Assembly (NCBI GenBank): GCA_025464025.1
Contig: JAODBP010000260.1
Location: 46,708-110,707, forward strand
From: Actinomycetes bacterium
GTDB taxonomy: Bacteria > Actinomycetota > Acidimicrobiia > Acidimicrobiales > CADCSY01
DNA: 64,000 nt
Direction of reading: 5' to 3'
The number at the start of each line of letters is the position of its first letter. Positions within the stretch are counted from its first letter, which is position 1. Positions 4,517 to 37,097 of this stretch are shown here, in pieces. Below the pieces are notes generated by a model that was not told the origin of the DNA, made no database searches, and saw only the letters and a program-made list of their open reading frames with translations. The position numbers and the translations under genes are program-made.

Positions 4517-4524
4517 TCCAGTAT

Positions 4525-4549: not shown

Positions 4550-4625
4550 AGTCTCACACGCGTGTAACTCAACGGTAACCCGGCGTTCAGCCGCAAACGC
4601 CGCGAACCACCCGCCCGGGCGGTTG

Positions 4626-18426: not shown

Positions 18427-18693
18427 ATGGCCGTCTGCGCCCACCTCGATGCCATCCACGACGTGCAGCCGTCGGCCCCCGGGTGCGAGGACTGCCTCGC
18501 CGCCGGTCGCCACGACTGGGTGCACCTCCGCCTCTGCACGAGCTGCGGCCACGTGGGGTGCTGCGACAACTCGCCGGGCAAGCACGCCACCGCCCACTTC
18601 CACGCCGTCGAGCACCCGATCATCCGCTCGATCGAGCCGGGCGAGGCGTGGCTGTGGTGCTACCTCGACGAGGTGGCGTTCGAGCTCGACTAG
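18427..18693 (+). CDS. UBP-type zinc finger protein
   Basis: 88 residues, ATG start. It is a stand-alone ZnF-UBP domain: CEDC near residue 20, CTSCGHVGCCD in the middle and HATAHFHAVEHPI after it, matching the Cys/His ligands of the domain. The eukaryotic domain binds ubiquitin C-termini; the role of the bacterial stand-alone form is unknown. It is divergent from the TIGR03085 gene and its end is followed by the dispersed repeat. Confidence 0.88.
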   Translation: MAVCAHLDAIHDVQPSAPGCEDCLAAGRHDWVHLRLCTSCGHVGCCDNSPGKHATAHFHAVEHPIIRSIEPGEAWLWCYLDEVAFELD

Positions 18694-18798
18694 CTGTTGA
18701 TCCCAAGGACGTTCGTCAGTGCGACGTTCGTGCCATGGGAGATCGGGCGTCAGGGTCGAAGGGCAAGGACGCAACCAAGTGGGCGACCGGGTGCCGCC

Positions 18799-18907
18799 GG
18801 CCCGCCGCGGGGCCCCTCACGTCTGAGTTCTGGACGGTTCTTGGTGACATGCCCCGACAACCGTCCACATCTCGGCGATTCGGCCCGGCAAACGGGACGC
18901 GCGCCGA
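18799..18907. repeat. Dispersed structured repeat, copy 1
   Basis: About 109 bp matching 31864-31971 with three substitutions and one single-base indel. It contains the inverted repeat TGGACGGTT / AACCGTCCA around a 19-nt loop. It lies between the convergent UBP-finger and tag genes. Its right end (GCGCGCCGA) is 1 nt from the tag stop codon. No flanking direct repeat is visible for this copy. It is not coding: the differences do not preserve any frame. Confidence 0.85.
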
Positions 18908-18908
18908 T

Positions 18909-19466
18909 CTACAACGAGCCCGAGTCGGTGCGCACGAGGCAGCCGGCGAGGTGGTCGTCGACCAGCCCGCAGGCCTGCATGGCGGCATAGGCCGTGGTCG
19001 GCCCGACGAAGCGGAAGCCGTGGGCCTTGAGCGCCTTGGCCAGCGCCTTCGACTCGGGCGTGGTGGCCGGCAGGTCGCCGAGGCGCTCGATCGGCGCCCG
19101 GGCCTCGGTCGGTGCGAACGACCAGATCAGGTCGGGGAGCGAGGAGCCGGCGTCGCGGAGGTCGAGGGTGGCGCGGGCGTTGGCGATGGTGGCCTCGATC
19201 TTGGCCCGGTTGCGCACGATCGACGCGTCGGCGAGCAGCCGCTCGACGTCGTGGGGCCCGAACTCGGCCACCACCTCGGGGTCGAAGCCAGCGAAGGCGG
19301 CCCGGAAGCCATCGCGCTTGCGGAGGATGGTGATCCACGACAGGCCGGACTGGAACGCCTCGAGCGAGATCCGCTCGTACAGCCCACGCTCGTCGCGCAC
19401 CGGCACGCCCCACTCGGTGTCGTGGTAGCGCTCGTAGACCTCGTCACCGTCCCCGAAGCAACGCAT
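18909..19466 (-). CDS. tag: DNA-3-methyladenine glycosylase I
   Basis: 185 residues from the ATG at 19466. Tag family: MRCFGDGDEVYERYHDTEWGVP at the start, LSWITILRKRDGFRAAF, and a C-terminal PTTAYAAMQACGLVDDH segment. The zinc ligands of E. coli Tag have clear counterparts (Cys near residue 3, His in YHDTEWG, then His and Cys in DDHLAGC). The catalytic Glu in the TEWGVP motif is present. It removes 3-methyladenine in base-excision repair. The stop codon abuts the dispersed repeat. Confidence 0.94.
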   Translation of the reverse strand: MRCFGDGDEVYERYHDTEWGVPVRDERGLYERISLEAFQSGLSWITILRKRDGFRAAFAGFDPEVVAEFGPHDVERLLADASIVRNRAKIEATIANARATLDLRDAGSSLPDLIWSFAPTEARAPIERLGDLPATTPESKALAKALKAHGFRFVGPTTAYAAMQACGLVDDHLAGCLVRTDSGSL

Positions 19467-19491
19467 CGGGACGACGATACGGTCATCGGTC

Positions 19492-19911
19492 ATGAGTGAG
19501 ATGAACGACTGGAACAAGCAGGTCATCGACGAGTTCCGCGCCAACGGCGGCAAGGTCGCCCAGTTCGGCGACGCCGACATGGTCATCCTCCACCACACCG
19601 GGGCGAAGTCGGGCACGGCCCGGGAGACGCCCCTCGTGTCGCGCGTCGAGGGCGACAAGGTGGTCGTCTTCGCCTCGAAGGCCGGCGCCCCGACCCACCC
19701 CGACTGGTACCACAACCTCGTGGCCAACCCTCGGACGAAGGTCGAGATCGGCAACGAGACGCGCGACGTCGTGGCCCGGGTCGCCGAGGGCGAGGAGCAC
19801 GACCGGCTCTGGGCCCGCCAGAAGGAGGAGATGCCCGGCTTCGCCGAGTACGAGGAGAAGGTCGCCGGGGCCCGCGTGATCCCGGTCGTCGTCCTCGAGC
19901 CGGCGAGCTAG
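19492..19911 (+). CDS. Deazaflavin (F420)-dependent nitroreductase family protein
   Basis: 139 residues, ATG start. It belongs to the Ddn-like split-barrel family: MVILHHTGAKSGTARETPLV, FASKAGAPTHPDWYHNLVANP and VEIG. These are the motifs that hold F420 in mycobacterial Ddn, and Tyr/Trp residues near the deazaflavin are conserved. It reduces quinones or other acceptors with F420H2; the natural substrate is unknown. Its TAG stop shares a CTAG with the opposing gene's TAG. Confidence 0.9.
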   Translation: MSEMNDWNKQVIDEFRANGGKVAQFGDADMVILHHTGAKSGTARETPLVSRVEGDKVVVFASKAGAPTHPDWYHNLVANPRTKVEIGNETRDVVARVAEGEEHDRLWARQKEEMPGFAEYEEKVAGARVIPVVVLEPAS

Positions 19912-20666
19912 GCCCCTCGGGGCACCTCGAACCACACCGTCTTGCCGCGGGTCCGGGTGATCACGCCCCAGTTCGAGCTCAGCATCTCGACGAGGGCGAG
20001 GCCCCGGCCCGACTCGGCCTCGTCGGTGGCCACCCGCGGCGCGATTGGCCGCTCGTCCTCGTCCGACACGCTGACCCGGACCACGTCGGCGAACAGCTCG
20101 ACGCCGAGGTGGCAGGTCGTGCGGGCGTGGGCGACGACGTTGGTCACCAGCTCGCTGGTGAGGAGCACGAGGGTGTCGAGGGCGGCATCGGGCACCTCGG
20201 CGATCAACGCCGACGTGAGCGCCTGGCGGGCCTGCCCCGCGCTGCGGGGCTCGGCCGGCAGCTCGCGCTCGAGCACGGCCTCGACGGCGCCGAGGACGCC
20301 GGCCAGGTCGTGGATGTCGGCGGCCAGGGCGGCCACGTTGCGGCCCTTCTCGAGGTAGCCGATGGCGCCGGCCTCCCGAGCGGCCGGGCCCATCTCGTCG
20401 ACCGGGAAGCCGGAGAGGATCACGACCTTCACCTGCGGCACCGCCTCGCGCAGGGCGGGCAGGGCGGTCAGGCCGTCCATCACCGGCATGGCGAGGTCGA
20501 GCACCACGACGTCGGGCTGGTGCTCGGCGGCCAGGGCGATGGCCTCCTCGCCGTCGGCCGCCTCGGCGACCACGTCGAAGCGGCCGTCCTGCTCCATCAG
20601 GATGCGCAGCAGGGCCCGGATGTCCTCGACGTCGTCGACCAGGAGCGTGCGGAGCCGGGCGACCAT
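19908..20666 (-). CDS. Response regulator receiver fused to an RsbW-like ATPase domain
   Basis: 252 residues. An N-terminal REC domain (about 1-120) has the acidic pocket (VDDVEDI), the phospho-acceptor VVVLDLAMP and a conserved Lys (GYLEKG). A C-terminal HATPase_c_2 domain (about 135-252) of the anti-sigma/RsbW type shows LLTSELVTNVVAHA and GRGLALVEML. A REC-controlled anti-sigma kinase or switch is a reasonable reading. Its ATG overlaps the preceding gene's stop (ATGA), so the two are translated together. Confidence 0.85.
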   Translation of the reverse strand: MVARLRTLLVDDVEDIRALLRILMEQDGRFDVVAEAADGEEAIALAAEHQPDVVVLDLAMPVMDGLTALPALREAVPQVKVVILSGFPVDEMGPAAREAGAIGYLEKGRNVAALAADIHDLAGVLGAVEAVLERELPAEPRSAGQARQALTSALIAEVPDAALDTLVLLTSELVTNVVAHARTTCHLGVELFADVVRVSVSDEDERPIAPRVATDEAESGRGLALVEMLSSNWGVITRTRGKTVWFEVPRGA

Positions 20667-21037
20667 CAGGCCCGCTTCCCTTCCTGGTCGTCGGCCGGGT
20701 GGTGGCGGACCAGGTCGCCGGGGGCGACGGGGTCGCCGGCCCGGAGCAGCTCGCCCACGATCTTGCGGGCGGCGTCGAGGGTGCGGTCGATCGTCGTCGC
20801 CGCTGTCTCCAGGTCGCCCACCTCCACCGCCATCCGAGCCACGACGAGCCCCTGCACCACGTCGTCGTTCAGCTCGATCGCGTCACGCCGACGGCGTTCG
20901 AGCTCCGCCGCCGACGTCGGCGTAGGGGGGGTGGGTCGGGGGTCGATCCCCCCAGTGTGCCGAACCTGGCGCGGGAGCGGGGGCGACGGTCCGTGCCGCC
21001 GGCTCCGGCCACCGTCCGGGACAGGTTCCGTGCGCAC
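20666..21037 (-). CDS. Small HisKA_3-like dimerisation protein without the phospho-histidine
   Basis: Up to 123 residues from the ATG at 21037; a GTG at 20965 would give a 99-residue form without the Pro-rich leader. The helical part RRRDAIELNDDVVQGLVVAR looks like the HisKA_3 helix (usually LHDxxxQ), with Asn where the phospho-acceptor His would be. A second helix follows (ETAATTIDRTLDAARKIV). No ATPase domain is present. It overlaps the REC-ATPase gene by ATGA and probably partners with it; this is inference. Confidence 0.65.
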   Translation of the reverse strand: MRTEPVPDGGRSRRHGPSPPLPRQVRHTGGIDPRPTPPTPTSAAELERRRRDAIELNDDVVQGLVVARMAVEVGDLETAATTIDRTLDAARKIVGELLRAGDPVAPGDLVRHHPADDQEGKRA

Positions 21038-21144
21038 AGGGCGGAAGCCGTTCCTTGGGGTTCCCTCCGAGAAGGGGGGGAATCACAGAAGCCGTGCCGG
21101 AACCCCTCAACGTCGGCCCCGAACCGGTCGAAAGGACAGGTGGA

Positions 21145-23931
21145 ATGACCGGCACTGGCGAGCAGACCGTGACGAGCGACGTCCCCGGGGCGGGCGCCGA
21201 CGTGTTCGCGCTCCTCGACGCCGAGTGGCAGGTGCTGCACGTCTCGGCCCGGACCCGCCGGCTCTTCGGCATCGTCGACGATCGCGTGCTCGGCTCGTCC
21301 GTGTTCGACAACGTCCACCCGGTCGACCTCGAGGTCGCGGCCCAGGCCCTGCTGGCGGCCCGGGCCAACCCGGGCGAGCCCGTGGCGGCCCGGCTCCGGG
21401 TCCGGCCGATCACGGGGCCGTGGCGGCAGGTCGAGATCGTCGTGGCCAACCGGTTGCACGAGGCGGGCGTCGAGGCGTACGTCATCACCGGCACCGATGT
21501 GACCCTCGAGCGGCGGGCCGCCGTGGCCGGGAGCCTCGAGACCCGCCTGCTCGACTCGCTGCCCACCGCGCTGATGGTCACCGACGACGCCGGGGTCATC
21601 GTGCTGTGGAACCGCCGGGCCACCGAGCTCTACGGCTACGAGCCCGAGGAGGTGCTGGGCCACGACATCAACGAGCTGCCCATCGCCGCCCCGACCGAGG
21701 TCCACGGCGAGATCCTCGAGGCCGTCGCCGACGGGGGCCGGTGGACCGGCGAGTTCGTCTCGGCCCGGAAGGACGGCACGGCCATCCCCGTCGTCGTCAC
21801 CGTCGACCGGCTCGATGCTCCCGAGATCGGCTTCCACGGCCTGGTCGGCGCCGGGATCGACAACTCCGAGCGGCGCGCCCTCCAGGTCACGCTGGCCCAC
21901 CAGGCCCTGCACGACCCGTTGACCGGTCTGCCCAACCGCTCGCTGTTCCTCGACCGCCTCGACCAGGCCCTCGCCCGGCTGCGCCGCACCCCGGGGAACA
22001 TCGCTGTGCTGTTCATCGACCTCGACCGGTTCAAGCTCGTGAACGACACGTGCGGCCACCTGGCCGGCGACGAGGTGCTGCGGGCGGTCGGCTCCCTGTT
22101 CGAGGGCGTCGTCCGGCCGATGGACACCGTGGCCCGCCTGGGTGGCGACGAGTTCGCCGTCTGCTGCGAGCAGCTCACCGACCCGGCCGAGGCCGTGCGC
22201 CTGGCCGAGCGGCTGACGGCGGCGGTGTCGCAACCCTTCGTCGTCGAGGACCGCGAGTTCTACGTCACGACGTCGATCGGCATCGTGCTCGGCTCCGGCG
22301 GGGAGGGCGAGTCGGCCACGACCCTGCTGCGCGACGCCGACTCGGCGATGTACCACGCCAAGGAGCGGGGCCGGGGGCGCATCGAGATCTTCGACCGGGG
22401 CATGCGTCTGGAGGTCATCCGCAAGGCCGAGGTGGCCAGCCAGCTCCGCCACGCCCTCGAGCGCGAGGAGCTGGCCCTCTACTACCAGCCGGTCGTCCGG
22501 CTCGCCGACGGTGGGCTCGCCGGCTTCGAGGCGCTCCTCCGCTGGCACCACCCCGAGCGGGGGGTGCTCCTGCCCGGCGAGTTCATGGACGTTGCCGAGG
22601 ACACCAACCTGATCGTGCCGGTGGGCGCGTGGGTCCTCGACGAGGCCGGGCGCCAGCTGGCCAGTTGGCGCGACGAGCTGCCCGAGCACCCGATCACGAT
22701 CAGCGTGAACCTGTCGGCCCGCCAGATCGCCGACGTCGGACTGGTGCCGGTCGTGCGCGACGTGCTGGCCCGCTACGAGCTCGAGCCGTCGCGCCTGTGC
22801 CTGGAGATCACCGAGAGCACGCTGATGGAGGACGCCGCGGCGTCGGTCGCGACGTTGCGGGAGCTGAAGGCCCTCGGCGTCCAGCTCGCCATCGACGACT
22901 TCGGCACCGGGTACTCGTCGCTCGCCTACCTGAAGCGCTTCCCGGTCGACTTCCTGAAGATCGACCGGTCGTTCGTGAGCGGGCTCGACCACGAGACCGA
23001 GGACGCCGTCATCGTCAAGGCCGTCGTCGAGCTCGGTCGGGCCCTCGGCCTCGGCGTCGTCGCCGAGGGCGTCGAGACCGATGCCGAGCTGGCCGAGCTC
23101 CAGCGCATGGGCTGCGAGCTGGCCCAGGGGTACCGCTGGGCCATGCCGTGCCCGCCGGCCGAGGCCGTGCGGCTCGCCGTCGAGTGGCAGGGCACGTCCG
23201 GCACCGAGCCGATGGCTGCCGCGCTGGCCCACGCCGAGGAGCCGGCGTTGCTCACCACGACCGAGCTGCTGTCCGTCCTGACCCATGAGCTGGTGACCCC
23301 GCTCACCGTGGTGAAGGGGCAGTGCGAGCGGCTGGCCGGCCTGGTGGAGGGCGTGCCCGGCGCGGCCGAGGTCGTCGCCGCGGTCGCCCGCAACGCCGAG
23401 CGCATCGAGCACCTCGTGGCCACGCTGGCCGACGCCCAGCAGCTCGACGCCGGGACCATCGCCCTGCGGGTCACGCCGTTCGACATGGTCGAGCTGGTCC
23501 AGGACGTGGTGTCGCTGGCCGTGCCCGAGGACCGCCAGGTCCACCTCGTCGGCATCCCCGAGGCCCACATCGAGGCCGACGGGCGCCGCGTCGAGCAGAT
23601 CGTGGTGAACCTCCTGACCAACGCCCACAAGTTCTCGCCGGCCGACGCGCCCATCGTGGTGTCGTTCGCGGCCGACGACGACGAGGTCACCGTGGTCGTG
23701 TGCGACGAGGGTCCGGGCGTCCCGGCCGAGCGGGTCGGCGACATCTTCCGGAAGTTCGCCCGGCTCGAGCGGACCAAGAAGGGCGTGGGGCTCGGCCTCT
23801 TCATCTCCCGCCGGCTGGCCCGCGCCCACGGCGGCGACCTGCACTACCGCCGACGCCGGCCCGAGGGATCGGAGCTCGTGCTCACCCTCCCGCGCCGAAC
23901 GGCGCCGGGAGCGGGCACGCTGTCTGTGTGA
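21145..23931 (+). CDS. PAS-GGDEF-EAL protein fused to a C-terminal histidine kinase
   Basis: 928 residues from the ATG at 21145, with a purine-rich AGGACAGGTGGA before it. An N-terminal PAS-like region and a second PAS (about 130-235) precede a GGDEF domain with an intact GGDEF motif (about residue 332). An EAL domain follows, with EALLRWHHPERG (about 461), DDFGTGYSSL and EGVET, all apparently catalytic. After EAL comes a complete kinase core: H-box LTHELVTPL (His about 713) and HATPase with DEGPGVP and GVGLGLF. It could make and break c-di-GMP and also phosphorylate a regulator. Cytosolic by sequence. The next gene starts inside its stop codon. Confidence 0.92.
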   Translation: MTGTGEQTVTSDVPGAGADVFALLDAEWQVLHVSARTRRLFGIVDDRVLGSSVFDNVHPVDLEVAAQALLAARANPGEPVAARLRVRPITGPWRQVEIVVANRLHEAGVEAYVITGTDVTLERRAAVAGSLETRLLDSLPTALMVTDDAGVIVLWNRRATELYGYEPEEVLGHDINELPIAAPTEVHGEILEAVADGGRWTGEFVSARKDGTAIPVVVTVDRLDAPEIGFHGLVGAGIDNSERRALQVTLAHQALHDPLTGLPNRSLFLDRLDQALARLRRTPGNIAVLFIDLDRFKLVNDTCGHLAGDEVLRAVGSLFEGVVRPMDTVARLGGDEFAVCCEQLTDPAEAVRLAERLTAAVSQPFVVEDREFYVTTSIGIVLGSGGEGESATTLLRDADSAMYHAKERGRGRIEIFDRGMRLEVIRKAEVASQLRHALEREELALYYQPVVRLADGGLAGFEALLRWHHPERGVLLPGEFMDVAEDTNLIVPVGAWVLDEAGRQLASWRDELPEHPITISVNLSARQIADVGLVPVVRDVLARYELEPSRLCLEITESTLMEDAAASVATLRELKALGVQLAIDDFGTGYSSLAYLKRFPVDFLKIDRSFVSGLDHETEDAVIVKAVVELGRALGLGVVAEGVETDAELAELQRMGCELAQGYRWAMPCPPAEAVRLAVEWQGTSGTEPMAAALAHAEEPALLTTTELLSVLTHELVTPLTVVKGQCERLAGLVEGVPGAAEVVAAVARNAERIEHLVATLADAQQLDAGTIALRVTPFDMVELVQDVVSLAVPEDRQVHLVGIPEAHIEADGRRVEQIVVNLLTNAHKFSPADAPIVVSFAADDDEVTVVVCDEGPGVPAERVGDIFRKFARLERTKKGVGLGLFISRRLARAHGGDLHYRRRRPEGSELVLTLPRRTAPGAGTLSV

Positions 23932-24776
23932 CAGCTGTTGATCCCGCGGTCGCGCGGCGGATGTGGCACCTGCTGGAGCCGTACCACGCGCCGGTGTACT
24001 TCGCCCCCGAGGTGACCGACGCCATGCGGGCGGTCGGGCTCAAGGGCTTCTGGATGGGCTACTTCGCCGGACGCTCGGCACCGCTCGGCGACATCGGGCC
24101 CGAGGTGGTCACTGCCCTGTTCTTCGGCTTCCACCCGGCGATGGTGGCTCGGGCCCTGCCCGATGCGTGGGCCCTGGCCTCGCCCGAGGAGGTCCTGTCG
24201 GCGCGACTGACGGCCGTGGGCGCCGCCCTCGAACGGGTGCTGGGCGACGCCGTGAAGAGCCCGGCGATCGCCGAGGCGGCCGAGTTGGCCCGCACCGCGG
24301 CCGCCGGCTGCGAGCTCGCCGCCCGCCCGCTCCACGCCGCCCACGCCTCGCTGGACTGGCCGGACGAACCCCACCTCGTGCTGTGGCACGCCGCCACCCT
24401 GCTGCGCGAGCACCGGGGCGACGGGCACGTGGTCGCCCTGGCGGCCGAGGGGCTCGACGGGTGCAGCGCCCACGTGGCCGCCGTCGAGATCGGGGCGGTG
24501 CCGCGGGAGTCGCTCCAGCCCAACCGCGGGTGGAGCGACGACGAGTGGGAGGCGGCCCGGCGCCGGTTGGCCGGGCTCGACCTGGCCGACCTCCGCATGC
24601 GCGTCGAGATCCGCACCGACCGCCTGGCCGTCAGCCCGTGGGCACACCTGGGCCCTGACGGCACCGAACGGCTCGCGGCCCTCCTCGAGCCGGTGGCCGC
24701 CCGCATCGTCGCCGACGGCGTCGTCCCTGTCCCCAACCCCATGGGCGCCCCGTGGCCGCCCCGTCCGCTGCAGTAG
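23928..24776 (+). CDS. SCO6745-like protein of unknown function
   Basis: 282 residues from a GTG at 23928 overlapping the previous stop (GTGA). It begins RRMWHLLEPYHAPVYFAPEV and continues GLKGFWMGYFAGRSAPLG, a pattern shared by the actinobacterial SCO6745/SalK-like family. It is helical with no membrane segment. No enzyme motif is recognised. Translational coupling to the c-di-GMP/kinase fusion suggests a functional link. Confidence 0.7.
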   Translation: MTAVDPAVARRMWHLLEPYHAPVYFAPEVTDAMRAVGLKGFWMGYFAGRSAPLGDIGPEVVTALFFGFHPAMVARALPDAWALASPEEVLSARLTAVGAALERVLGDAVKSPAIAEAAELARTAAAGCELAARPLHAAHASLDWPDEPHLVLWHAATLLREHRGDGHVVALAAEGLDGCSAHVAAVEIGAVPRESLQPNRGWSDDEWEAARRRLAGLDLADLRMRVEIRTDRLAVSPWAHLGPDGTERLAALLEPVAARIVADGVVPVPNPMGAPWPPRPLQ

Positions 24777-24877
24777 GGGTCGGCTTCCGAGTCACGACAC
24801 CAACCCAGGAGGCGCCAAGGAACCTCCAAGGATCCGCTCGCATGCTTCGCTCACCCCTACGAACGAGGCGGAGCGCC

Positions 24878-25678
24878 ATGACGAACGATCAAGCAACGAC
24901 AGGTCCCGACGAGCAGCCCCAGGCACGGCGACGGCTTTCGAGCACGAGGAGCCGATGGATGGTGGTCGCCGCGGCCGCCGCGGTGCTCTGCGCGGTGATC
25001 GGACTCGCCGTCGGTCTCAACCCGTCCCGCTCGGCGACCGCGGCGCAGAACGTGACGGCCAGCGCTCCGACCACGGCCCCGGCCACCGCCGGCGGCCCGG
25101 CCGGTGGTCCTCGGTCCGGCGGCGGGACATCCAACGTCCGCTCTGCCCCGGCCGCCGGCGGTGCCGCCGGCACGGTCAGCGACGTGTCGACGTCGAGCTT
25201 CACCCTCACGACGCCGGCCGGCAAGGCGATGACCGTGAACGAGGCGTCGACCACGATCTACCAGGACGGGACGAGCTCGACCTCGACGGGGACGGTGACG
25301 GCGGGTGACACCGTCCTGGTGCTCGGGACGACCGGTGGCACGACCATCACCGCCACACGGGTCATCGTGCACCCGACGGGTGACTACAGCGCGGCGGCCT
25401 CCACGGCCGCCGGGGTCGTCCCCTTCCAGCAGGGAGCACCCTCCGCGGCGAAGCAGGACGGTCAGGTCCCGGCGAACTACACCGAGGGGTCGGGGACCGT
25501 CGTCAGCGGGACCACCGCGGACCAAGCGACGGAAGCCGCGCTCGCCGCCTACCCCGGAGGCATCGTCGACCGGGTCGTGCAGCTGAGCGACGGCACGTAC
25601 GAGGTCCACAACATCGGCGTCAACTGGCCGCACCACGTCTTCGTGAACCAGGACTTCAAGGTGGTCGGCGCCAACTAG
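24878..25678 (+). CDS. Membrane-anchored DUF5666-like protein with PepSY-like tail
   Basis: 266 residues from the ATG at 24878, with an AGGCGGAG upstream. One transmembrane helix (about 27-48) follows a short charged N-terminus, then a Gly/Ala/Thr-rich extracytoplasmic linker. A beta-rich segment (about 88-170: GTVSDVSTSSFTLTT, GDTVLVLG) looks like DUF5666. The C-terminal 60 residues (ATEAALAAYPGGIVDRVVQL...YEVHNI) resemble a PepSY-type domain. It converges on the OmpR-type regulator gene. The role is unknown; similar proteins sit beside two-component systems. Confidence 0.7.
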   Translation: MTNDQATTGPDEQPQARRRLSSTRSRWMVVAAAAAVLCAVIGLAVGLNPSRSATAAQNVTASAPTTAPATAGGPAGGPRSGGGTSNVRSAPAAGGAAGTVSDVSTSSFTLTTPAGKAMTVNEASTTIYQDGTSSTSTGTVTAGDTVLVLGTTGGTTITATRVIVHPTGDYSAAASTAAGVVPFQQGAPSAAKQDGQVPANYTEGSGTVVSGTTADQATEAALAAYPGGIVDRVVQLSDGTYEVHNIGVNWPHHVFVNQDFKVVGAN

Positions 25679-25687
25679 TGGCCTGAC

Positions 25688-26386
25688 CTACGAGGCGAAG
25701 CGGTAGCCGACCCCTCGGACGTTGTGGATCCACTTCGGGTTCGTGGGGTCGGTCTCCAGCTTCAACCGCACCCGGCGCACGTGCTCGGTCACCGTGGCCG
25801 GCACCTGCCAGTCCTCCGACGAGCCCCACACCTCGCTGAGCAGCTCCTGGCGGGAGAACACCCGGCGGGGGTGGGCGGCGAGGAAGGCGAGCAGGTCGAA
25901 CTCCCGCTTGGTGAGCTCGACCTTGCGGCCGTCGACGGTGACCTCGCGGGCCGAGCGGTCGATGGTCAGCCCCTCGTGGGTCAGGATGTCGGCTTCGGTG
26001 GTGTCGACCGCCCCGTGCTCGGCCCGGCGCAGGACGGTGCGGATGCGGGCGATGAGCTCGCGGGCCGAGAACGGCTTGAGCACGTAGTCGTCGGCGCCCC
26101 GCTCGAGGCCGGCCACCCGGTCCTGCTCGAGCCGCCGGCCGGTGAGCACGATCACGGGGAGCTCGCCGCGCCGCCGCACGGCGCTGAGCACGTCGAGCCC
26201 GTCGAGGTCGGGCAGGTCGAGGTCGAGGAGCACGATGTCGGGCGGGTCGGCGCCGACGGCCAGCAGTGCGCTCGCGCCGTCGGCGGCCGTCTGCACGACC
26301 ATCCCCTCGGCTTCCAGCGTCTCCCTCAGGAAGCCCTGCAGGTCGACGTCGTCCTCCGCCACGAGGACGCGTATGGGGGTGCTCAT
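25688..26386 (-). CDS. OmpR/PhoB-family response regulator
   Basis: 232 residues. The receiver domain (about 1-120) has AEDD, the phospho-acceptor VLLDLDLP, the switch Thr (VLTGR) and Lys (VLKPF). The C-terminal winged helix (about 135-230) shows LTKREFDLLAFLAAHPRRVFSRQELL and IHNVRGVGYRF. Its ATG overlaps the stop of the upstream hybrid kinase (ATGA), so the 1203-residue protein is its probable cognate kinase. Confidence 0.93.
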   Translation of the reverse strand: MSTPIRVLVAEDDVDLQGFLRETLEAEGMVVQTAADGASALLAVGADPPDIVLLDLDLPDLDGLDVLSAVRRRGELPVIVLTGRRLEQDRVAGLERGADDYVLKPFSARELIARIRTVLRRAEHGAVDTTEADILTHEGLTIDRSAREVTVDGRKVELTKREFDLLAFLAAHPRRVFSRQELLSEVWGSSEDWQVPATVTEHVRRVRLKLETDPTNPKWIHNVRGVGYRFAS

Positions 26387-29300
26387 CGTTGCTCCGTGCT
26401 GGCCGGCAGGGTCAGGACGAACGTAGCCCCGCCCCCAGGGGTGGGCTGGTGCACCACGTCGCCGCCGTGGCGGCGGGCGATCGAGCGCGACAGGTAGAGG
26501 CCGAGGCCGAGGCCCCGACGGGTCGAGCCCAGCCGGGCGAACCGGCCGAAGAGCTCGTCGACCCGCTCGGGCGGCACGCCGGTGCCGTGGTCGACGACCG
26601 TGACGGCCACCGTCGCCGGGTCGCGCTCGGTGTGGACCGCGATCTCGATGCGGTCGCCCGGGTCGCTGAACTTCGTGGCGTTGCCCACCAGGTTGGTGAG
26701 GATCTGGCTCAGCCCGACCGGATCGGCGGTGACCACAGCGTCCTCACCCTCGCCCACGTGCACGGCGAGCTCGTGGGCGGTGAGGATCGGGGCCAGGTCG
26801 GCCACCGTCTGCTCGACGAAGGGCCGCACGTCGAACGTGACGCTGTCGCCGCCGCTGCCGAGGCCGCGGGCGTCGGCGAGGGCTGCCACCAGCCGGCCGA
26901 GGTTGTGCACGTTGCGCTCGATGGCGGCGACGCCCGTGCGGGCCCCGGGATCGACCTCGTCGAGGTCGAGCCGGTCGGCCAGCATCTCGGCGTAGCCCCC
27001 GATGACGGTCAGCGGCGTGCTGAGCTCGTGGGTCAGCACGGCGAGCAGCTCGTCGAGCTCGCTGCGGTCGTCGCCCGGCTCGAGCGGGCCGACGGTCACG
27101 ATCGGGATGTCGGGGAGCTGGCCCTCGATCAGGGCCGTCATGTCGTCGGCCGTCATCGGCCGGCTCCACAGGTAGCCCTGGCCCTGTTCGCAGCCGAGTC
27201 GCTTGAGGTGGGCGAGCTGCTCGGGGGTCTCGACGCCCTCGGCGATCACGGTGAGGTCGAGGCGGTGGGCCAGGCGGACCACGGCGGCCACGATGGCGGA
27301 GTCGCCGGCATCGGCGCCCAGGCCGTCGACGAACGAGCGGTCGATCTTCAGCACGTCGGCCGGGAAGCGCTTCAGGTAGAGGAGCGACGAGTAGCCGGTG
27401 CCGAAGTCGTCGATGGCGATGCTGACACCGAGGTCGCGCAGGGCGCCGAACACGGTGCTGGCCCGCTCGGCGTCGTCGACGAGGGTGCTCTCGGTCATCT
27501 CCAGCACGAGGCGGGAGGGCTTGATGCCGTGGCGCTCGAGGGTCGACCGGGTGAACTCGACGAGCCCGGGGTCGGCGAGCTGCCGGGCCGAGAGGTTGAC
27601 GGCCACGGTCAGGGTGTCGTCGGCGTGGGTCGACCACTCGGCGAGCCGGGCGCACGACTCCTCGAGCACCTGGCGGCCGATGTCGACGATGGCGCCGGAC
27701 TCCTCGGCCGCGCCCACGAAGTCGGCCGGGGGGAGCAGGCCTCGCTCGGGGTGGTCCCAGCGGACGAGCGCTTCGACGCCGACGATGCGGTTCGTGGCCA
27801 GCTCGACCTCGGGCTGGAAGTGGACGACGAACTGCTGCGCGGTGACCGCCAGCTGCAGCTCGCGCTCGAGGCTGAGGCGGGGCATCGACGAGCGGAGCTG
27901 ATCGGTGAAGAGCTGGGCCCGGTCGCGGCCGCGGGCCTTGGCCGTCGCCATGGCGAGCGAGGCGTCGCCTTCGAGCGTCTCGATGGGGCTGCCCTCGGCC
28001 GACCGGAAGACGACGCCGACGCTGGCCGGGCAGGTGAACTCGATGTCGTCGAGGAGGAGGGGCCTCCGGAGCTCGGTGAGGAGGTGCTCGGCCGTGGCCA
28101 TGGCCGCGTCGGCGTCGGCGACGTCCTCGACGAGGACGAGGAACTCGTCGCCCCCGCCCCGGGCGACCGTGTCGGGCGACGGGACGGCACCCCGCAGCCG
28201 GCGGGCCACCTCGGCGAGGACCTCGTCGCCGGCGAGGTGGCCGAGGCTCTCGTTGATCCGGCCGAACCGGTCGAGGTCGAGGCACAGCACGGCGACGCCG
28301 CGCGAGCCGTGGCCGATCCGGGCGATGGCCTGCTCGGCCCGGCGGTGGAAGAGCGTGCGGCTGGGCAGGCCGGTGAGGCTGTCCTCGAGCATGCGCTCGG
28401 CCAGGCGCCGGGTCGCAGCGTCTCGCTGGAGGAGGATGCGCACGACCGAGCCGAGCTGCTCGACGAGGGCGAAGTCCTCGGGGTCGGCGTGCTCGGGCGG
28501 GTCGTGGACGACGACGAAGCCGGCCACGTGGCCGCCGTCCTCGACGACGGGGAGCGTCCAGGCGCCACCGAGCCGGAGGGCGGCGCCGACGGGCGTGCCG
28601 CCGTCGGGCGGGATCACGATCACGCCGGGCGACTCGCGCCAGCGCGTGGGGGCGAAGGTGCGGTAGGCCTCGTCGAGCTCGAGGGCGTGGGCCTTGTCGA
28701 GGCCCACCGCGGTCACGTGCTCGGACCAGCCCATGCTGCCGGTGGCCATGACCACCCAGTGGCTGCCCGGGAGGTGGGCCTCGCCGACGTCGGCCACCTT
28801 GCGCAGGACGGTCTCGAGCTCGGCGCCGCTGGCCACCAGCTCGAGCACGGCCTGGTGGTCGGCCAGTCGGGCTTCGGCCCGCTTGCGGGGGCCGATGTCC
28901 TGGAACTGCATGAAGTAGTGGTCGCCGATGACGTCGTCGTGCACCGTCGACCACGTGACCCAGGTCCAGATCGTCGACCCGTCCGAGCGGAGGTAGCGCT
29001 TCTCGACGCCCTCCATCCCGGTGGTGGTCGGGGCCAGGCGCCTGATGTGGTGGAGCATGCTCTGGTCGTCGGCCGGCGTGACATCGGCCGCGGTGACCTC
29101 GAGCATCTCCTCCTCGGTGCGGCCGAAGAGCTCGCAGAGCCGAGGGTTGACGAGGACGTACCGGCCCTCTCGGTTCACCAGGGCCATCCCGATCGACGCG
29201 CTGTTGAAGGCGGCCTGCCAGCGTTCGTGGAGCTGCTGGATGGCGTGCTGCTCGTTGACCCGGGCGGTGACGTCGCTCCGGGTGACGATGGCGCCCCGGC

Positions 29301-29994
29301 CACCGTCGATCTCGAACGGGGTGACCCGGAGGCTGAACCAGCGGCCGCGGTCGAGGTAGTCGGTGTGGAAGGCGGCTCGATCACCGTCGAGGACGAGCTG
29401 GGTGGCCATCGCCGCGCCGGGCACGTGGGCCAGGCTGGCCACGAACTGGTCGCCGGGCAGGGCGACGTCGAGCTCGAGGTCGGCGGCGTCGACGACCCAC
29501 GCCGCGTTGACCAGCTTGATCGTGCCCTTCTCGTCGAGCACGGCGGTGGCGGTGGGCACGGCATCGAGCACCGCCCGGTTGAGCTCGTCGCGCTCGCGGA
29601 CGTGGTGGAGGGCCTCGGCCTCGGTGGTGACGTCGCGGATGATCCCCGCGAGCTGCTCACCGCCGTTCCACGGGAACACCGTCACGTCGACGGTCCGCAT
29701 CCCGAGCTGGGGGAAGGTCGCCGCGGCCCGGTAGTGCTGGGTGGTCCCCGTCTCGAGCGCCCGCACCCACCACTGGTAGGCGAGCTCGACGCCGTCGGGC
29801 GTGAGGACGTCCTCGACGAGCAGGCCGTGGACGTCGGCTCGCCTGCCGTCGGGCCGGCGCACGTGACGGCCGGTGAGGGTGACGAAGCGCAGGGTGGGTC
29901 CCGGCTCGACGTCGACGAGGAACACCGTCTCGTCCAACTCGTCCAGCACGCTCGCGAGGCGCTGCTGTATCGAGAACCCTTCGGGCACCAGCAC
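26383..29994 (-). CDS. Multi-PAS GGDEF-EAL protein with C-terminal histidine kinase
   Basis: 1203 residues, ATG start. Three PAS-like domains (about 1-370) are followed by a GAF-like region (about 375-545), GGDEF (GGGDEF near 615), EAL (EALVRWDHPERG near 740, DDFGTGYSSL, EGVET) and then a complete kinase core: THELSTPL (His near 988) and an HATPase ending GLGLGLYLS (N-box NLVGNATKFS). Both c-di-GMP motifs and the phospho-acceptor are intact. It overlaps an OmpR regulator, so one polypeptide may couple c-di-GMP turnover to a classical two-component output. It is a likely paralogue of the 928-residue protein at 21145-23931, with extra sensor domains. Confidence 0.92.
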   Translation of the reverse strand: MLVPEGFSIQQRLASVLDELDETVFLVDVEPGPTLRFVTLTGRHVRRPDGRRADVHGLLVEDVLTPDGVELAYQWWVRALETGTTQHYRAAATFPQLGMRTVDVTVFPWNGGEQLAGIIRDVTTEAEALHHVRERDELNRAVLDAVPTATAVLDEKGTIKLVNAAWVVDAADLELDVALPGDQFVASLAHVPGAAMATQLVLDGDRAAFHTDYLDRGRWFSLRVTPFEIDGGRGAIVTRSDVTARVNEQHAIQQLHERWQAAFNSASIGMALVNREGRYVLVNPRLCELFGRTEEEMLEVTAADVTPADDQSMLHHIRRLAPTTTGMEGVEKRYLRSDGSTIWTWVTWSTVHDDVIGDHYFMQFQDIGPRKRAEARLADHQAVLELVASGAELETVLRKVADVGEAHLPGSHWVVMATGSMGWSEHVTAVGLDKAHALELDEAYRTFAPTRWRESPGVIVIPPDGGTPVGAALRLGGAWTLPVVEDGGHVAGFVVVHDPPEHADPEDFALVEQLGSVVRILLQRDAATRRLAERMLEDSLTGLPSRTLFHRRAEQAIARIGHGSRGVAVLCLDLDRFGRINESLGHLAGDEVLAEVARRLRGAVPSPDTVARGGGDEFLVLVEDVADADAAMATAEHLLTELRRPLLLDDIEFTCPASVGVVFRSAEGSPIETLEGDASLAMATAKARGRDRAQLFTDQLRSSMPRLSLERELQLAVTAQQFVVHFQPEVELATNRIVGVEALVRWDHPERGLLPPADFVGAAEESGAIVDIGRQVLEESCARLAEWSTHADDTLTVAVNLSARQLADPGLVEFTRSTLERHGIKPSRLVLEMTESTLVDDAERASTVFGALRDLGVSIAIDDFGTGYSSLLYLKRFPADVLKIDRSFVDGLGADAGDSAIVAAVVRLAHRLDLTVIAEGVETPEQLAHLKRLGCEQGQGYLWSRPMTADDMTALIEGQLPDIPIVTVGPLEPGDDRSELDELLAVLTHELSTPLTVIGGYAEMLADRLDLDEVDPGARTGVAAIERNVHNLGRLVAALADARGLGSGGDSVTFDVRPFVEQTVADLAPILTAHELAVHVGEGEDAVVTADPVGLSQILTNLVGNATKFSDPGDRIEIAVHTERDPATVAVTVVDHGTGVPPERVDELFGRFARLGSTRRGLGLGLYLSRSIARRHGGDVVHQPTPGGGATFVLTLPASTEQR

Positions 29995-30077
29995 TGTTCA
30001 GGTCGTCCGTTCGTGGATTGCCGTCTCAGAAGTATCGGACAGGCGTCAACCATCATGGAAGGAGAAGTGGGATTTCC

Positions 30078-30878
30078 TCAGGGATGTGCCCGGTGCCACC
30101 CGGCCAGCACGGCCCGGTACGCAGCGTCCCACCGTTCGTAGATCTGGCGGAGGATGGGGCCGGGCCACCCCCCGGGCAGCAGCTCGGCCGGCAGCAGGGG
30201 ATCGCCGGCCAGGTGGCGCAGGACGGCCGCCGACAGCACGAAGCCGGGCGCCAGGGCGTCGGTGTCGCCGGCGTCGAGGGCGGCCTGGGTGGCGGTCAGC
30301 CGATCGACGAGGGCACCGGCCGTGGTGGCCCAGCCTTCGAGGTCCCAGAGGGTGGCGGCCAGGGCGGTCGGATCGAGGTCGGGCGTGGCCGCCAACCAGG
30401 CGGCGTGACCGGCCAGACGCGGCGCCAGGACGGGGGTCGGGAGGTTGTCGGGTCGGGTCCACACGCCCTCCCGCCACTCGGCCAGACGGCCGCCGGCGAG
30501 CGCGGCGCGGAGCTCGCCGCGCTCGAGCGCCGACCGCCGCCCGGCCGTGACGACGGCGAGGTGCCAGCCACCCGCCCACGGCGCGTCGGGCGGGTGGAGG
30601 CCCGAGGCCTGCCGGCGCTGCCGGTCGAGCAGGCGGCCGGCCAGGCGGTAGCGACCGTCGTCGGCGACGACCTCGCCGGCCGCCGCCATGCGGGACAGCG
30701 CGACCCGGGCCGTGCCCTCGCTGATGCCGAAGAGCCCGGCCGTGGCCACCAGCCGGGCGGTCGGCAGGGCCGGCGGGTCGAGCCCGAGCAGGGTCGAGAG
30801 CAGCACGGAGCGGGCCGTGAGCGGTCGGAGCTCCGGCGTGCCGCTCCCCGATGGCGTGGTGTTACCAGTTGCCGTCAC
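30078..30878 (-). CDS. PaaX family transcriptional regulator
   Basis: 266 residues, GTG start. An N-terminal winged helix with LTARSVLLSTLLG, ISEGTARVALSRMAAAGEV and DGRYRLAGRLLDRQRRQ is the PaaX signature. The middle domain and the C-terminal region (LPGGWPGPILRQIYERWDAAYRAVL) also match. In enteric bacteria PaaX represses phenylacetate catabolism and responds to phenylacetyl-CoA. Here it is divergent from a desaturase, 26 bp apart, so control of fatty-acid modification is more likely. Confidence 0.85.
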   Translation of the reverse strand: MTATGNTTPSGSGTPELRPLTARSVLLSTLLGLDPPALPTARLVATAGLFGISEGTARVALSRMAAAGEVVADDGRYRLAGRLLDRQRRQASGLHPPDAPWAGGWHLAVVTAGRRSALERGELRAALAGGRLAEWREGVWTRPDNLPTPVLAPRLAGHAAWLAATPDLDPTALAATLWDLEGWATTAGALVDRLTATQAALDAGDTDALAPGFVLSAAVLRHLAGDPLLPAELLPGGWPGPILRQIYERWDAAYRAVLAGWHRAHP

Positions 30879-30904
30879 GTGTCTGTCGAACGTAACATGG
30901 CGGG

Positions 30905-31849
30905 GTGGCCGTGACCGTGCTCCCGCCGCCCGAGCTCCTCCCCGAGGTGCTCCCGACCGAGCGCCTCACCGCGTCGGGACGGCCGGTGCCCGAGGTCCGA
31001 TCCGGCCTGCGCCGGATCCACGACGCCCGCAACGTGGTCACCGTGCTCGGTTGCTGGGCGCAGGTCGTCCTCCCGGTGGCGGCGGCGGTCTGGTTCGACC
31101 ACCCGCTGGCGTGGGTGGCCGCCTTCCTGGTGGCCGGGCGCAACTTCGCCCGCCTCTCGATCCTGGCCCACGAAGCGGCCCACCGCCTGCTGTTCACCGA
31201 CCGGCGGGCCAACGACTGGGTCGGCCGCTGGCTGCTCGCCTACCCCGCCTTCGTGCCGCTCGACGTCTACCGCCGCGGCCACCTGGCCCACCACGGCGAC
31301 GAGCTCGGCCCCGACGAACCCGACATGGGCCTCTACGTCGGCTACCCGATCTCTCGGGCGTCGCTGCGCCGCAAGCTGGTGCGGGACGCGGTTGGCATCT
31401 CGGGTTGGAAGAACCTCAAGCCCCTGCTGCTCGCCGTGCGATCGCGGTCGGCCCGCCCGGTGGCCCTGCGGATCCTCGCCGCCCAGGCGGTCCTGCTCGC
31501 GGCGTGCACGGCGTTCGGCCGGCCCGAGCTGTACCTGTTCCTGTGGCTGCTGCCCTGGATGACCGTGTGGCGGGTGCTCAACCGCCTCCGGTCGATCGCC
31601 GAGCACGGCGGCATGCAGCGCTCGCCCGACCGGCGGCTCACCACCCACCACGTGCGCCAGCGGCCGCTCGCCCGGTTCTGGATCGTGCCGTACAACACCG
31701 GCTGGCACCTGGCCCACCACACCGACATCGGTGTGCCGTGGCGCCACCTGCCCGCCATGCACCGCGAGCTGGTCGATGCCGGCTGGGTCGTCCCCGGCCT
31801 CGAGCACCCCAGCTACCTCGCCCTCTGGCGCGACCTCTCGTCTCGCTAG
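30905..31849 (+). CDS. Membrane fatty acid desaturase
   Basis: 314 residues, GTG start. Several hydrophobic helices are interrupted by the histidine boxes of the FADS family: HEAAH, HLAHH, EHGG and a C-terminal HLAHH. These bind the di-iron centre that introduces double bonds into acyl chains using O2. The subfamily (acyl-lipid or beta-carotene-hydroxylase-like) cannot be fixed. Divergent from the paaX-like gene. Its stop codon lies inside the left 22-bp direct repeat that flanks the dispersed element. Confidence 0.88.
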   Translation: MAVTVLPPPELLPEVLPTERLTASGRPVPEVRSGLRRIHDARNVVTVLGCWAQVVLPVAAAVWFDHPLAWVAAFLVAGRNFARLSILAHEAAHRLLFTDRRANDWVGRWLLAYPAFVPLDVYRRGHLAHHGDELGPDEPDMGLYVGYPISRASLRRKLVRDAVGISGWKNLKPLLLAVRSRSARPVALRILAAQAVLLAACTAFGRPELYLFLWLLPWMTVWRVLNRLRSIAEHGGMQRSPDRRLTTHHVRQRPLARFWIVPYNTGWHLAHHTDIGVPWRHLPAMHRELVDAGWVVPGLEHPSYLALWRDLSSR

Positions 31850-31866
31850 AGCTGGATGGCGGCGGC
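31845..31866. repeat. 22-bp direct repeat, left flank of dispersed element copy 2
   Basis: GCTAGAGCTGGATGGCGGCG plus GC, identical to 31972-31993. It contains the desaturase TAG. It also contains a second copy of the last codons and stop of the convergent lipoprotein gene. This is the layout expected if the two genes once met on a shared CTAG and the site was duplicated by insertion. Confidence 0.85.
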
Positions 31867-31971
31867 CCGCCGCGGTGCCCTCAAGTCTGAGTTCTGGACG
31901 GTTCTTGGTGACATGCCCCGACAACCGTCCACATCTCAGCGATTCGGCCCGGCAAACGGGACGCGCGCCGA
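31864..31971. repeat. Dispersed structured repeat, copy 2, flanked by target-site-like duplication
   Basis: About 108 bp, close match to 18799-18907. On the minus strand the stem TGGACGGTT/AACCGTCCA is extended by CTGAG/CTCAG across a 3x3 internal loop; copy 1 has a C-A mismatch in that outer stem. The right end is 1 nt from the lipoprotein stop codon, as in copy 1. The perfect 22-bp repeats on both sides suggest insertion. Confidence 0.85.
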
Positions 31972-31993
31972 GCTAGAGCTGGATGGCGGCGGC
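31972..31993. repeat. 22-bp direct repeat, right flank of dispersed element copy 2
   Basis: Identical to 31845-31866. This copy is the functional 3' end of the lipoprotein gene (last six codons and TAG on the minus strand). Confidence 0.85.
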
Positions 31994-32563
31994 GATCTGC
32001 TTGGCCTCGGCCGGCGTGCGGTCGGCCACCTGCGACGCCAGCAGCACGAGCGCCCAGCGGGTGCCCACCTGTCGGATGGCGGCGTGGGTTGTGAGGGTCG
32101 TCTCCCCGTCCTGCTCGACGGTCGTGTAGCCGCCGCCGTCGGCGAACGGGATGGCCCCGGCACCCTCGAGCACCGTGGCCTGGGCCGCGGCGTAGCGAGC
32201 GGCCCCGGCCGCGTCACCGAACTCGTAGACGGCGACGTACGCGGTGTCGGCGCTCGCCCCGTTCACCCACGACCGGGTCACGCCGCGGACGAACCCGGCG
32301 TCGGTCAGCCGCTTCCGCTCGGCGGCGCTGTCGTTGGACGAGCTGGCCGCGCCGTCGAGGTCGAGCGGCCCACCGCCGAACGCGGCGTCGGCCCGGACGA
32401 AGCCGTCGAGCGCGGTCGTCGGCAGCCGGGCGGCGAGCGCGGCGCCCGCCGGTGACGTGGTCGTGGTCGACGATGGCTGGAGGTCGAGCCTCGGGCCGTC
32501 CGACGAGGAGGAGCACCCGGCCAGCACGAGGGCGAGGAGCGCCCCGGCGAGGATGCGCCTCAC
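31973..32563 (-). CDS. Putative lipoprotein of unknown function
   Basis: 196 residues from a GTG at 32563 overlapping the larC stop (GTGA). A lipoprotein signal peptide with lipobox LVLAGC (Cys near 17) is followed by a Ser/Thr-rich linker. A mixed domain with EFGDAAGAARYAAAQA and TRWALVLLASQ resembles proteins of the DUF7373/PknH-sensor-like type, but the match is weak. Anchored outside the membrane. The stop is immediately next to the dispersed repeat. Confidence 0.75.
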   Translation of the reverse strand: MRRILAGALLALVLAGCSSSSDGPRLDLQPSSTTTTSPAGAALAARLPTTALDGFVRADAAFGGGPLDLDGAASSSNDSAAERKRLTDAGFVRGVTRSWVNGASADTAYVAVYEFGDAAGAARYAAAQATVLEGAGAIPFADGGGYTTVEQDGETTLTTHAAIRQVGTRWALVLLASQVADRTPAEAKQIAAAIQL

Positions 32564-35855: not shown

Positions 35856-37025
35856 ATGTCCGGCAGTAGACGCGGGCGGTCCCTGACCGCCCTCGCACTC
35901 GGCACCGCGGTCGTCCTGACCTCGGTGCTCGTCCTCCCCGCAACTCCCGCCGGCGCCACCGATGGCGGCGGCAAGGTCCTCGCCCGGGGCGCAGCCCCCG
36001 ACCACGGTGGCCCTGGCGAGATCGCCAGTGCGGTCACCGGTCTGGCCGCCACGCCCTCCGGCGGCGGCTACTGGGTCCTCACCGCCGACGGCGCCGTGCG
36101 GGCCTACGGCGACGCCCTCTTCATGGGCTCGGCCGCCGGCGACCACCTGAGCGCCGTCGACCTCGCCGCCCACCCGTCGGGCAGGGGCTACTGGCTCGTG
36201 GCCGACGACGGCCGGGTTCGCACCTACGGCTACGCCCGCAACCTCGGCTCGCTCGAGGGCCGCCACCTGGCCGCCCCGATCGTCGGCATCGCCGCCACGA
36301 CCTCGGGCGACGGCTACTGGCTGGTGGCGCGCGACGGCGGCGTCTTCGCCTTCGGCGACGCCCGCTACCTCGGCGCCACCGCCGGCACGGCGCGGGCACC
36401 GGTGGCCGGCATCGCCGCCTCGCCCGACGGCCGGGGCTACTGGATCGCCGGCACCGACGGGTCGGTCTCGGCGTTCGGCTCGGCGGTCGCGGCCGGCGAC
36501 GCGGCCGGCACCCTCGCCTCGCCCGTCGTCGCCATCGACACCAGCCCGCTGCCCGGCGGCTACTGGCTGGCCACGGCCGACGGCCACGTGCGGGCCTTCG
36601 GCTCGGCGCACGACTTCGGCTCGGCCGATGTCGACGCCCCGGTCGCCGACTTCGCCGCCCGTCCGCTGGGCGACGGCTACTGGCTCGCCACCGGCGCCAC
36701 GCCGCGGTTCCGGGCCCAGAGCGCGAGCCAGGCGGTCCCCTACGAGCCGCCCGCCCCGGCCCCGGCACCCTCGTCGGGTGAGCCGTCCGACGCCGACTTC
36801 GACCGCCTGGCCCAGTGCGAGTCGGGGAGCCGGTGGAACCTGCGCTCGGGCAACGGCTACTACGGCGGCCTGCAGTTCAGCGCCTCGACGTGGCAGTCCC
36901 ACGGCGGCACCGGGCTGCCCAGCGACCACACCCGGGCCGAGCAGATCGACATCGGCCGGCGGCAGTGGCGCCAGAGCCGATGGACGGCCTGGCCGTCCTG
37001 CTCCCGCCAGCTCGGCCTGCGCTAG
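35856..37025 (+). CDS. Secreted resuscitation-promoting-factor-like transglycosylase with propeller repeats
   Basis: 389 residues, ATG with AAGGAG upstream. Signal peptide (about 1-34, ending PAGA). Residues about 55-290 are six repeats of roughly 40 residues with the pattern GIAA..GxGYWLVAxDGxVxAFGdA, a propeller-like module common in Acidimicrobiia secreted proteins. A Pro-rich linker leads to a C-terminal Rpf/transglycosylase-like domain (about 312-389) with FDRLAQCESG (catalytic Glu), YYGGLQFSASTW and RAEQIDIGRRQW. It cleaves peptidoglycan at the cell surface. The repeats probably bind wall or surface glycans (inference). Confidence 0.9.
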   Translation: MSGSRRGRSLTALALGTAVVLTSVLVLPATPAGATDGGGKVLARGAAPDHGGPGEIASAVTGLAATPSGGGYWVLTADGAVRAYGDALFMGSAAGDHLSAVDLAAHPSGRGYWLVADDGRVRTYGYARNLGSLEGRHLAAPIVGIAATTSGDGYWLVARDGGVFAFGDARYLGATAGTARAPVAGIAASPDGRGYWIAGTDGSVSAFGSAVAAGDAAGTLASPVVAIDTSPLPGGYWLATADGHVRAFGSAHDFGSADVDAPVADFAARPLGDGYWLATGATPRFRAQSASQAVPYEPPAPAPAPSSGEPSDADFDRLAQCESGSRWNLRSGNGYYGGLQFSASTWQSHGGTGLPSDHTRAEQIDIGRRQWRQSRWTAWPSCSRQLGLR

Positions 37026-37045
37026 CTGGCCACCGGTGAACGTTG

Positions 37046-37078
37046 CGACCGCCCCTTGGCCCGGCCAGGGGGCGGTCG
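37046..37078. terminator. Bidirectional hairpin terminator
   Basis: 14-bp stem CGACCGCCCCTTGG (37046-37059) / CCAGGGGGCGGTCG (37065-37078) with one G-U pair and a CCCGG loop. It lies between the convergent Rpf-like gene and the small membrane protein gene. Confidence 0.8.
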
Positions 37079-37097
37079 TCCGTGTCCGGGCGAGCGA

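Follow-up and report, generated by a model that had tools for sequence, protein, structure and literature searches.

Two copies of a small repeat lie between converging genes

The stretch of DNA analysed here, the window, comprises 64,000 nt of contig JAODBP010000260.1 (assembly GCA_025464025.1, positions 46,708 to 110,707) from a bacterium of the order Acidimicrobiales, and it carries two copies of a small repeat, each placed in the spacer between two converging genes. The copies, the hairpin inside each of them (type A) and the genes that flank them are as follows.

18799..18907, + strand: copy 1 of the repeat, 109 bp
31864..31971, + strand: copy 2 of the repeat, 108 bp
18825..18873, no strand given: type A hairpin of copy 1, GAGTTCTGGACGGTT...AACCGTCCACATCTC, arms 18825-18844 and 18854-18873
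31887..31939, no strand given: type A hairpin of copy 2, arms 31887-31908 and 31918-31939
18428..18693, + strand: gene ending left of copy 1, small zinc-finger-like protein (named by eye; no Pfam match)
18909..19460, - strand: gene ending right of copy 1, DNA-3-methyladenine glycosylase (Adenine_glyco, PF03352; start uncertain)
30905..31849, + strand: gene ending left of copy 2, fatty acid desaturase (PF00487)
31973..32560, - strand: gene ending right of copy 2, lipoprotein-like protein (by eye; no Pfam match; start uncertain)

An earlier note on this DNA had reported two near-identical copies at these positions, and the alignment bears this out: the copies differ over 109 columns by 3 substitutions and one 1-nt gap, and with their flanks they match over 123 columns at 93.5% identity (blastn, E 5e-49). 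No third copy was found by blastn in the window. Copy 1 is bounded by the stops at 18693 (+) and 18909 (-), and copy 2 by those at 31849 (+) and 31973 (-), positions that agree with the description of both as lying in convergent spacers, the right end of each being 1 nt away from a minus-strand CTA, that is, a TAG stop. When database proteins were searched for one that continues through copy 2 in a single frame, no candidate emerged.

The conserved stem-loop that had been described was also recovered, with arms of 20-22 nt in both copies, and the two hairpins are more stable than their dinucleotide shuffles (z -4.0 for copy 1 and -4.3 for copy 2). At the foot of the stem, opposite CTGAG, copy 1 reads CTCGG (giving a G-U pair) and copy 2 CTCAG, with a standard pair preserved.

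Both junctions are empty in the nearest relative

Among homologues of the desaturase, those that are named indicate Acidimicrobiales. Scanning genomes with an alignment of desaturase homologues recovered 80 loci, none of which holds the element as fetched (some stop near the gene). The nearest of them, at 83% identity, lies in the metagenome-assembled genome (MAG) Acidimicrobiales RYN_34 (G001 from here on), a 4.0-Mb assembly that is the nearest relative among the genomes compared. One contig of G001, 79,096 bases long, holds both the desaturase locus and the glycosylase/zinc-finger pair. On it the desaturase/lipoprotein spacer measures 50 nt, against 123 nt in the window, and the glycosylase/zinc-finger spacer 40 nt, against 215 nt; neither spacer contains the element, and no row of the hairpin or end searches described below falls on that contig. 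The flanking genes are conserved, with DNA identities between the window and G001 of 82.9% and 81.5% on the two sides of the desaturase/lipoprotein junction and of 84.8% and 78.0% for the glycosylase/zinc-finger pair. Element-free orthologous junctions, which the earlier note had proposed to look for, are thus found for both copies.

The relative carries a family with constant ends and different hairpins

A pattern for the hairpin core gave no match in a collection of 84,980 species genomes, and it missed G001 because the hairpin arms differ there. Searched with the window hairpin itself, G001 returned 17 rows with E values of up to 1, of which the best is 1.4e-9, and its type A copies are 78-91% identical to the hairpin of copy 2, the best being 86% over 49 nt. 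When 98 genomes were queried with the type A element, G001 was the only one to give a strong match.

The full element in G001 is about 200-340 bp long and is built of two conserved ends, the shell, around a long central hairpin. The shell ends (CAAAGACAAGGACGC ... GCGTCTTTGTCCTTTG; as read, ...CCTCAAAGACAAGGACGCAACCA... on one and ...GGGCGCGTCTTTGTCCTTTGGCGCAACCCC...GTACGCCCG on the other) are imperfect inverted repeats of each other and able to pair, and the elements share these long ends outside the hairpin. Searches of G001 with each end separately gave 40 and 43 rows, with 40 of 62 and 40 of 82 first-look candidates scored. After merging, at least 60 places on 56 contigs carry an end, a type A hairpin or a hairpin of another version, F; this count includes nine type A and four F places, and 3 of the 40 and 1 of the 43 end-search rows, together with a weak hairpin row on contig C115, were left out of it. 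With at least 60 related places in G001 and both window sites empty there, the proposal of a non-autonomous, dispersed element is supported.

Among 18 full-length G001 elements chosen by a motif rule, the centre was of type B in 10 and of type D in 2, while A, B', E, F, G and a composite occurred once each; B' is best counted with B, as a variant of it, and hairpins of six clearly distinct kinds (A, B, D, E, F and G) occupy the same place in the element. Ten hairpins, the two window copies included, had z values of -2.4 to -8.7 against dinucleotide shuffles when cut at their own ends, limits that were chosen by the analyst and so favour the hairpins; the hairpin part alone, as cut, spans 39-56 nt. 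The F hairpin recurs in further G001 shells (L193, L194, L195 and L196) and, alone among the six versions, also stands by itself: at one locus (L197) no shell motif lies within 250 nt, and a called gene has its 3' end 10 nt away.

At two G001 places (L095 600-780 and L090 1-105, on contigs C122 and C116), both near contig ends, other DNA breaks a type A hairpin at its tip, as if an insertion sequence (IS) had targeted the loop. Two short peptides from the inserted DNA have no Pfam match; one insert reads by eye like the C-terminus of an IS30-type transposase.

The size of the G001 elements speaks against 108 bp as a finished unit, and in the window a further feature extends copy 1.

18739..18786, + strand: shell end of the larger element, left of copy 1, GAGATCGGGCGT..GGGCAAGGACGCAACCAAGTGGGCGA (local alignment to the G001 shell ends)

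Against the left-type shell end of G001 this segment scores 36, a value equalled by none of 300 dinucleotide shuffles, and against the reverse complement of the right-type end it scores 28, equalled by 2 of 300. Copy 1 in reality reaches left to about 18739, and the 108-bp limits are incomplete for it. Read from sequence, a full element has probably been truncated to give copy 1, and copy 2 would be a shorter piece; both carry version A of the several hairpin versions.

A stretch of the empty desaturase junction of G001 (L001 10974-10994, GCGTCCGAGCCTTTGGCAACC) also bears a faint resemblance to a shell end; it is equalled by 18 of 300 shuffles, and as a possible relic of the element it was rejected as not significant.

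Elements sit at the 3' ends of genes

To describe the gene contexts in G001 we used a simple self-written codon-usage caller, trained on the desaturase locus (L001), rather than a published gene finder. Fifty loci were fetched and one (L097) was dropped for having no hit at 1e-5, leaving 49. Genes were called on both sides in 24 of these, of which 15 are convergent, 9 are tandem (5 and 4) and none is divergent; the other 25, with a called gene on one side only, enter the count of sides and not that of pairs. Of the 73 gene sides next to an element, 63 are 3' ends. By comparison, the 62 adjacent gene pairs of the window (the background used here, rather than G001) comprise 12 convergent, 37 tandem and 13 divergent pairs, giving a binomial p of 4e-6. 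Since these elements lie between convergent or tandem genes and none between divergent ones, and the sides that face them are mostly 3' ends, the family is strongly biased to gene 3' ends and convergent spacers.

Among the 33 sides of 20 hand-picked G001 loci, a loose end motif was present on 31, at distances of 0 to 60 nt from the stop codon, and was not found on the other two. Placement is thus near stop codons and not at an exact distance. The idea that the element targets stop-codon junctions keeps its 3'-end and convergent bias and loses the exact 1-nt spacing seen in the window.

The 22-bp repeat belongs to copy 2 only

Copy 2 had been described as sitting between two perfect 22-bp repeats, interpreted as a signature of transposition. 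The two units match exactly, although the left one overlaps the element rather than merely flanking it.

31845..31866, + strand: left unit of the 22-bp repeat, containing the desaturase stop and overlapping the first 3 nt of copy 2
31972..31993, + strand: right unit of the 22-bp repeat, the stop and last codons of the minus-strand gene

The repeat is present at one of the two window copies, the flanks of copy 1 having 8 nt in common at most. In G001 the flanks of 16 two-sided elements, copies whose age is not known, share at most 8 nt, with mismatched flanks used as a null reaching up to 10. A 22-bp target duplication as a rule of the family was rejected on the strength of these 16 copies and copy 1, and the repeat is not supported as a transposition signature of the family. 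In the window, as the earlier note had observed, gene pairs overlap on CTAG at 19908-19911 and 47103-47106, and in the desaturase locus of G001 the lipoprotein end occurs once beside the desaturase, no second copy being seen in the junction. Because the repeat duplicates the last codons of the minus-strand gene together with the shared CTAG, the ends of both genes are kept; it would most simply be a one-off target duplication that preserved both overlapping gene ends on arrival of the element. It could be accounted for by one target duplication, or else by copying with a template switch.

Similar hairpins elsewhere in the order

Of 397 genomes of the order searched for the exact GGACGGTT pattern, 7 gave a match and 5 matched the reversed control; G001 scored 0 because the stems of that genome are imperfect. 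The pattern is a poor test of kinship, and GGACGGTT does not serve the order as a general terminator. Among the genomes matched, only G149, G308 and G369 have good hairpins close to gene ends, and we do not claim common descent for them. The G149 genome contains 30 shorter GGACGGTT...AACCGTCC hairpins, with palindromes of the form GGACGGTTTGTCTC..GAGACAAACCGTCC (contig C1; L174, L179 and L182-L189). Ten of the 30 were read: 6 are convergent, 4 tandem and none divergent, with the 3' end of a called gene within 25 nt in nine and at 44 nt in the tenth. In G308 a called gene has its 3' end 13 nt away from the hairpin (L180). Hairpins of the G149 and G308 type may be kin of the present family or convergent in sequence, either being possible. 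In G369 (contig C342, 2055-2089; L173) a long palindrome around GGACGGTTGACGGCGC adjoins what reads by eye as a tRNA-like 3' end.

Exact or relaxed core patterns had no match in viral contigs or in phages, and a 25-nt plasmid match from Mycobacterium avium (E 0.3) was taken as chance.

Interpretation and alternatives

The repeats are dispersed in many copies in G001, absent from both orthologous junctions and biased to gene 3' ends. We consider it likely that the window copies are lineage-restricted, small, gene-less, hairpin-forming interspersed repeats, similar in kind to repetitive extragenic palindromes (REPs), bacterial interspersed mosaic elements (BIMEs) and miniature inverted-repeat transposable elements (MITEs). 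Members would be gained and lost by non-autonomous movement or copying, with the enzymes supplied from elsewhere, and might be tolerated or kept between converging genes, where promoters stay uncut. The hairpins could also serve as transcript 3'-end structures, in termination or in stability; a 3'-end role is plausible given that stable hairpins also occur in 3 of the 4 other convergent spacers of at least 50 nt in the window (4516-4626, 37025-37098 and 62080-62143).

Several results weigh against a mobile, REP-like repeat. The other 97 genomes queried with the type A element gave no strong match, only 13 short weak ones (best 4.5e-5). Searched with the window hairpin, only G001 and G308 of 397 genomes of the order matched, and with the type B element G001 and a single 48-nt match in G128, which was rejected since it reads by eye as coding and has no module fold; candidates scored per genome were 7 or 2, and at most 2 in the 397-genome searches. 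With no strong match beyond G001, the case is carried by two genomes. The G001 assembly is itself fragmented, with many of its contigs breaking off within elements (C24, C189, C86 and C273, for example) and identical end stretches recurring (127 nt in L129 and L140, 55 nt in L139 and L194), and some of its flanks may be chimeric; the repeats probably caused the contig fragmentation and some of the chimeric joins. In the window, local alignment showed no shell end right of either copy or left of copy 2, so that membership of the family rests on the hairpin and the left end of copy 1. The window and G001 spacers cannot be aligned, and loss in G001 rather than gain in the window may explain the empty junctions. 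Flank duplication rose above the null in none of the 16 two-sided copies. Finally, no transposase partner was found, and Y1_Tnp (PF01797), the domain of the REP-associated tyrosine transposase (RAYT), had no match in G001, a MAG that is perhaps incomplete; the same search was positive in 5 of 14 control genomes.

The repeats could instead be ordinary terminators, a favoured sequence reused by the host at each gene pair, with no DNA moving. The stable hairpins in the other convergent spacers would suit this, as would the 30 hairpins of G149, those fetched being convergent or tandem near gene 3' ends, and the F hairpin that stands without shell motifs beside a gene end. The window copies, however, are alike over 108 bp, well past the hairpin, the G001 elements share ends outside it, and the orthologous junctions lack elements altogether. 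Moreover, neither window copy has a T-tract after the full hairpin: at copy 2 the terminator scan came back empty, and at copy 1 it picked up just a short stem of 6 pairs within one of the arms. The GGACGGTT pattern met its reversed control at 7 genomes to 5, with none in G001. We regard this explanation as unlikely. A transposon-type MITE, whose transposase made the 22-bp duplication and which inserted recently at copy 2 and long ago at copy 1, would account for the exact repeat at copy 2 and for the inverted-repeat-like ends and multi-copy dispersal in G001. It is very unlikely in view of the flanks of copy 1 and of the 16 G001 copies, which have at most 8 nt in common, and no autonomous partner was seen, although no search was aimed at a gene-bearing element with these ends.

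It is highly improbable that the repeats are a family of structured non-coding RNA genes acting in trans and spread by duplication. The closing stem is conserved in 11 G001 members, most pairs being preserved in 9 to 11 of the 11, and each version forms a different but stable hairpin at the same place. Against this, the RNAalifold covariation term of that stem is only -0.09, with two-sided changes in 3 of 28 pairs, so that the covariance analysis the earlier note had suggested was rejected as too weak a proof of RNA function, and the fold of the whole element reaches a z of only -2.1 (one element, DNA parameters). A known RNA family was likewise rejected: Rfam 15 matched only 4 tRNAs in the window at gathering thresholds, and in 12 G001 loci at E up to 1 there were only two miRNA matches, far below threshold. 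The motif of integron attC sites, GTTRRRY, occurs on neither strand of copy 1 or copy 2, and an attC site was rejected. A mobile structured RNA, the other reading of the earlier note, is conceivable. We also think it quite unlikely that the family is mobile in a modular way, with frames (conserved, with two ends) and interchangeable hairpin cassettes moving separately, so that a genome swaps its bidirectional 3'-end structures. Such modules would be placed at gene 3' ends and would use a hairpin-specific recombination or copying route; one hairpin version of the six, F, does stand alone in G001. We take the family to be a REP/BIME/MITE-like element with unusual interchangeable centres and not a new class.

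Comparison with known repeats

REPs are reported to show a bias to convergent and tandem locations and near-stop placement, and some to supply the stop codon (PMC3733652). The present family resembles REPs and BIMEs in consisting of multi-copy intergenic palindromes near stops, between convergent or tandem genes, in mosaic combinations; its eight kinds of centre between common ends, counted in the 18 full-length elements, recall the BIME mosaic in particular. In contrast to REPs and BIMEs, the present unit is about 200-340 bp long, so that only its hairpin part comes near the REP size of 20-40 nt, its ends are conserved outside the hairpin and the hairpin sequence is interchangeable. Nor does it have a GTAG or conserved CGTC tag: by eye, a CGTC in copy 1 overlaps the stem foot, copy 2 has AGTC and the type A copies of G001 have other letters. 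With no constant tag and no RAYT found in G001, a RAYT-driven REP in the strict sense was rejected. A table in a REP survey of 2025 has a row for Acidimicrobium ferrooxidans (PMC12306157). The literature searched contained no detailed description of a small hairpin repeat in Acidimicrobiales, nor any of the present family.

By the MITE definition of PMC10969869, the family is MITE-like in being shorter than 500 bp and dispersed, with inverted-repeat-like ends and orthologous sites that are empty in a relative. It differs from MITEs in being GC-rich, in lacking a general target duplication, in having no autonomous partner found and in its variable outer limits, and the inverted-repeat ends met in G001 are not visible in window copy 2. 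Repeats of the ERIC/RU type are prokaryotic MITEs. Like an intrinsic terminator, the repeat has a strong hairpin just past stops, placed to act on both converging genes; unlike one, it has no T-tract after the full stem and its homology extends far beyond the hairpin. REPs broken by insertion sequences are reported in PMC1525189, and the two type A hairpins interrupted at the tip resemble them, with the difference that there are only two cases, both near contig ends, whose inserted peptides have no Pfam match.

In bacteria that have been well studied, small hairpin repeats are believed to influence transcript ends and the rearrangement of genomes. In the present family orthologous sites are empty, converging gene ends are very strongly favoured and the hairpins can be exchanged within constant ends, which opens the way to testing whether repeats of this sort are selfish passengers or serve as exchangeable modules for 3' ends. 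The repeats may also explain why contigs of the G001 MAG so often break at such spacers.

Two of the other convergent spacers of the window hold hairpins of their own. The spacer at 37025-37098 contains a near-perfect one at 37046-37078, with a 16-bp stem (CGACCGCCCCTTGGCC / GGCCAGGGGGCGGTCG), and that at 62080-62143 a strong GC-rich one (GAGCCGCCGGC..GCCGGCGGCTC), with GGGTTTT shortly after it.

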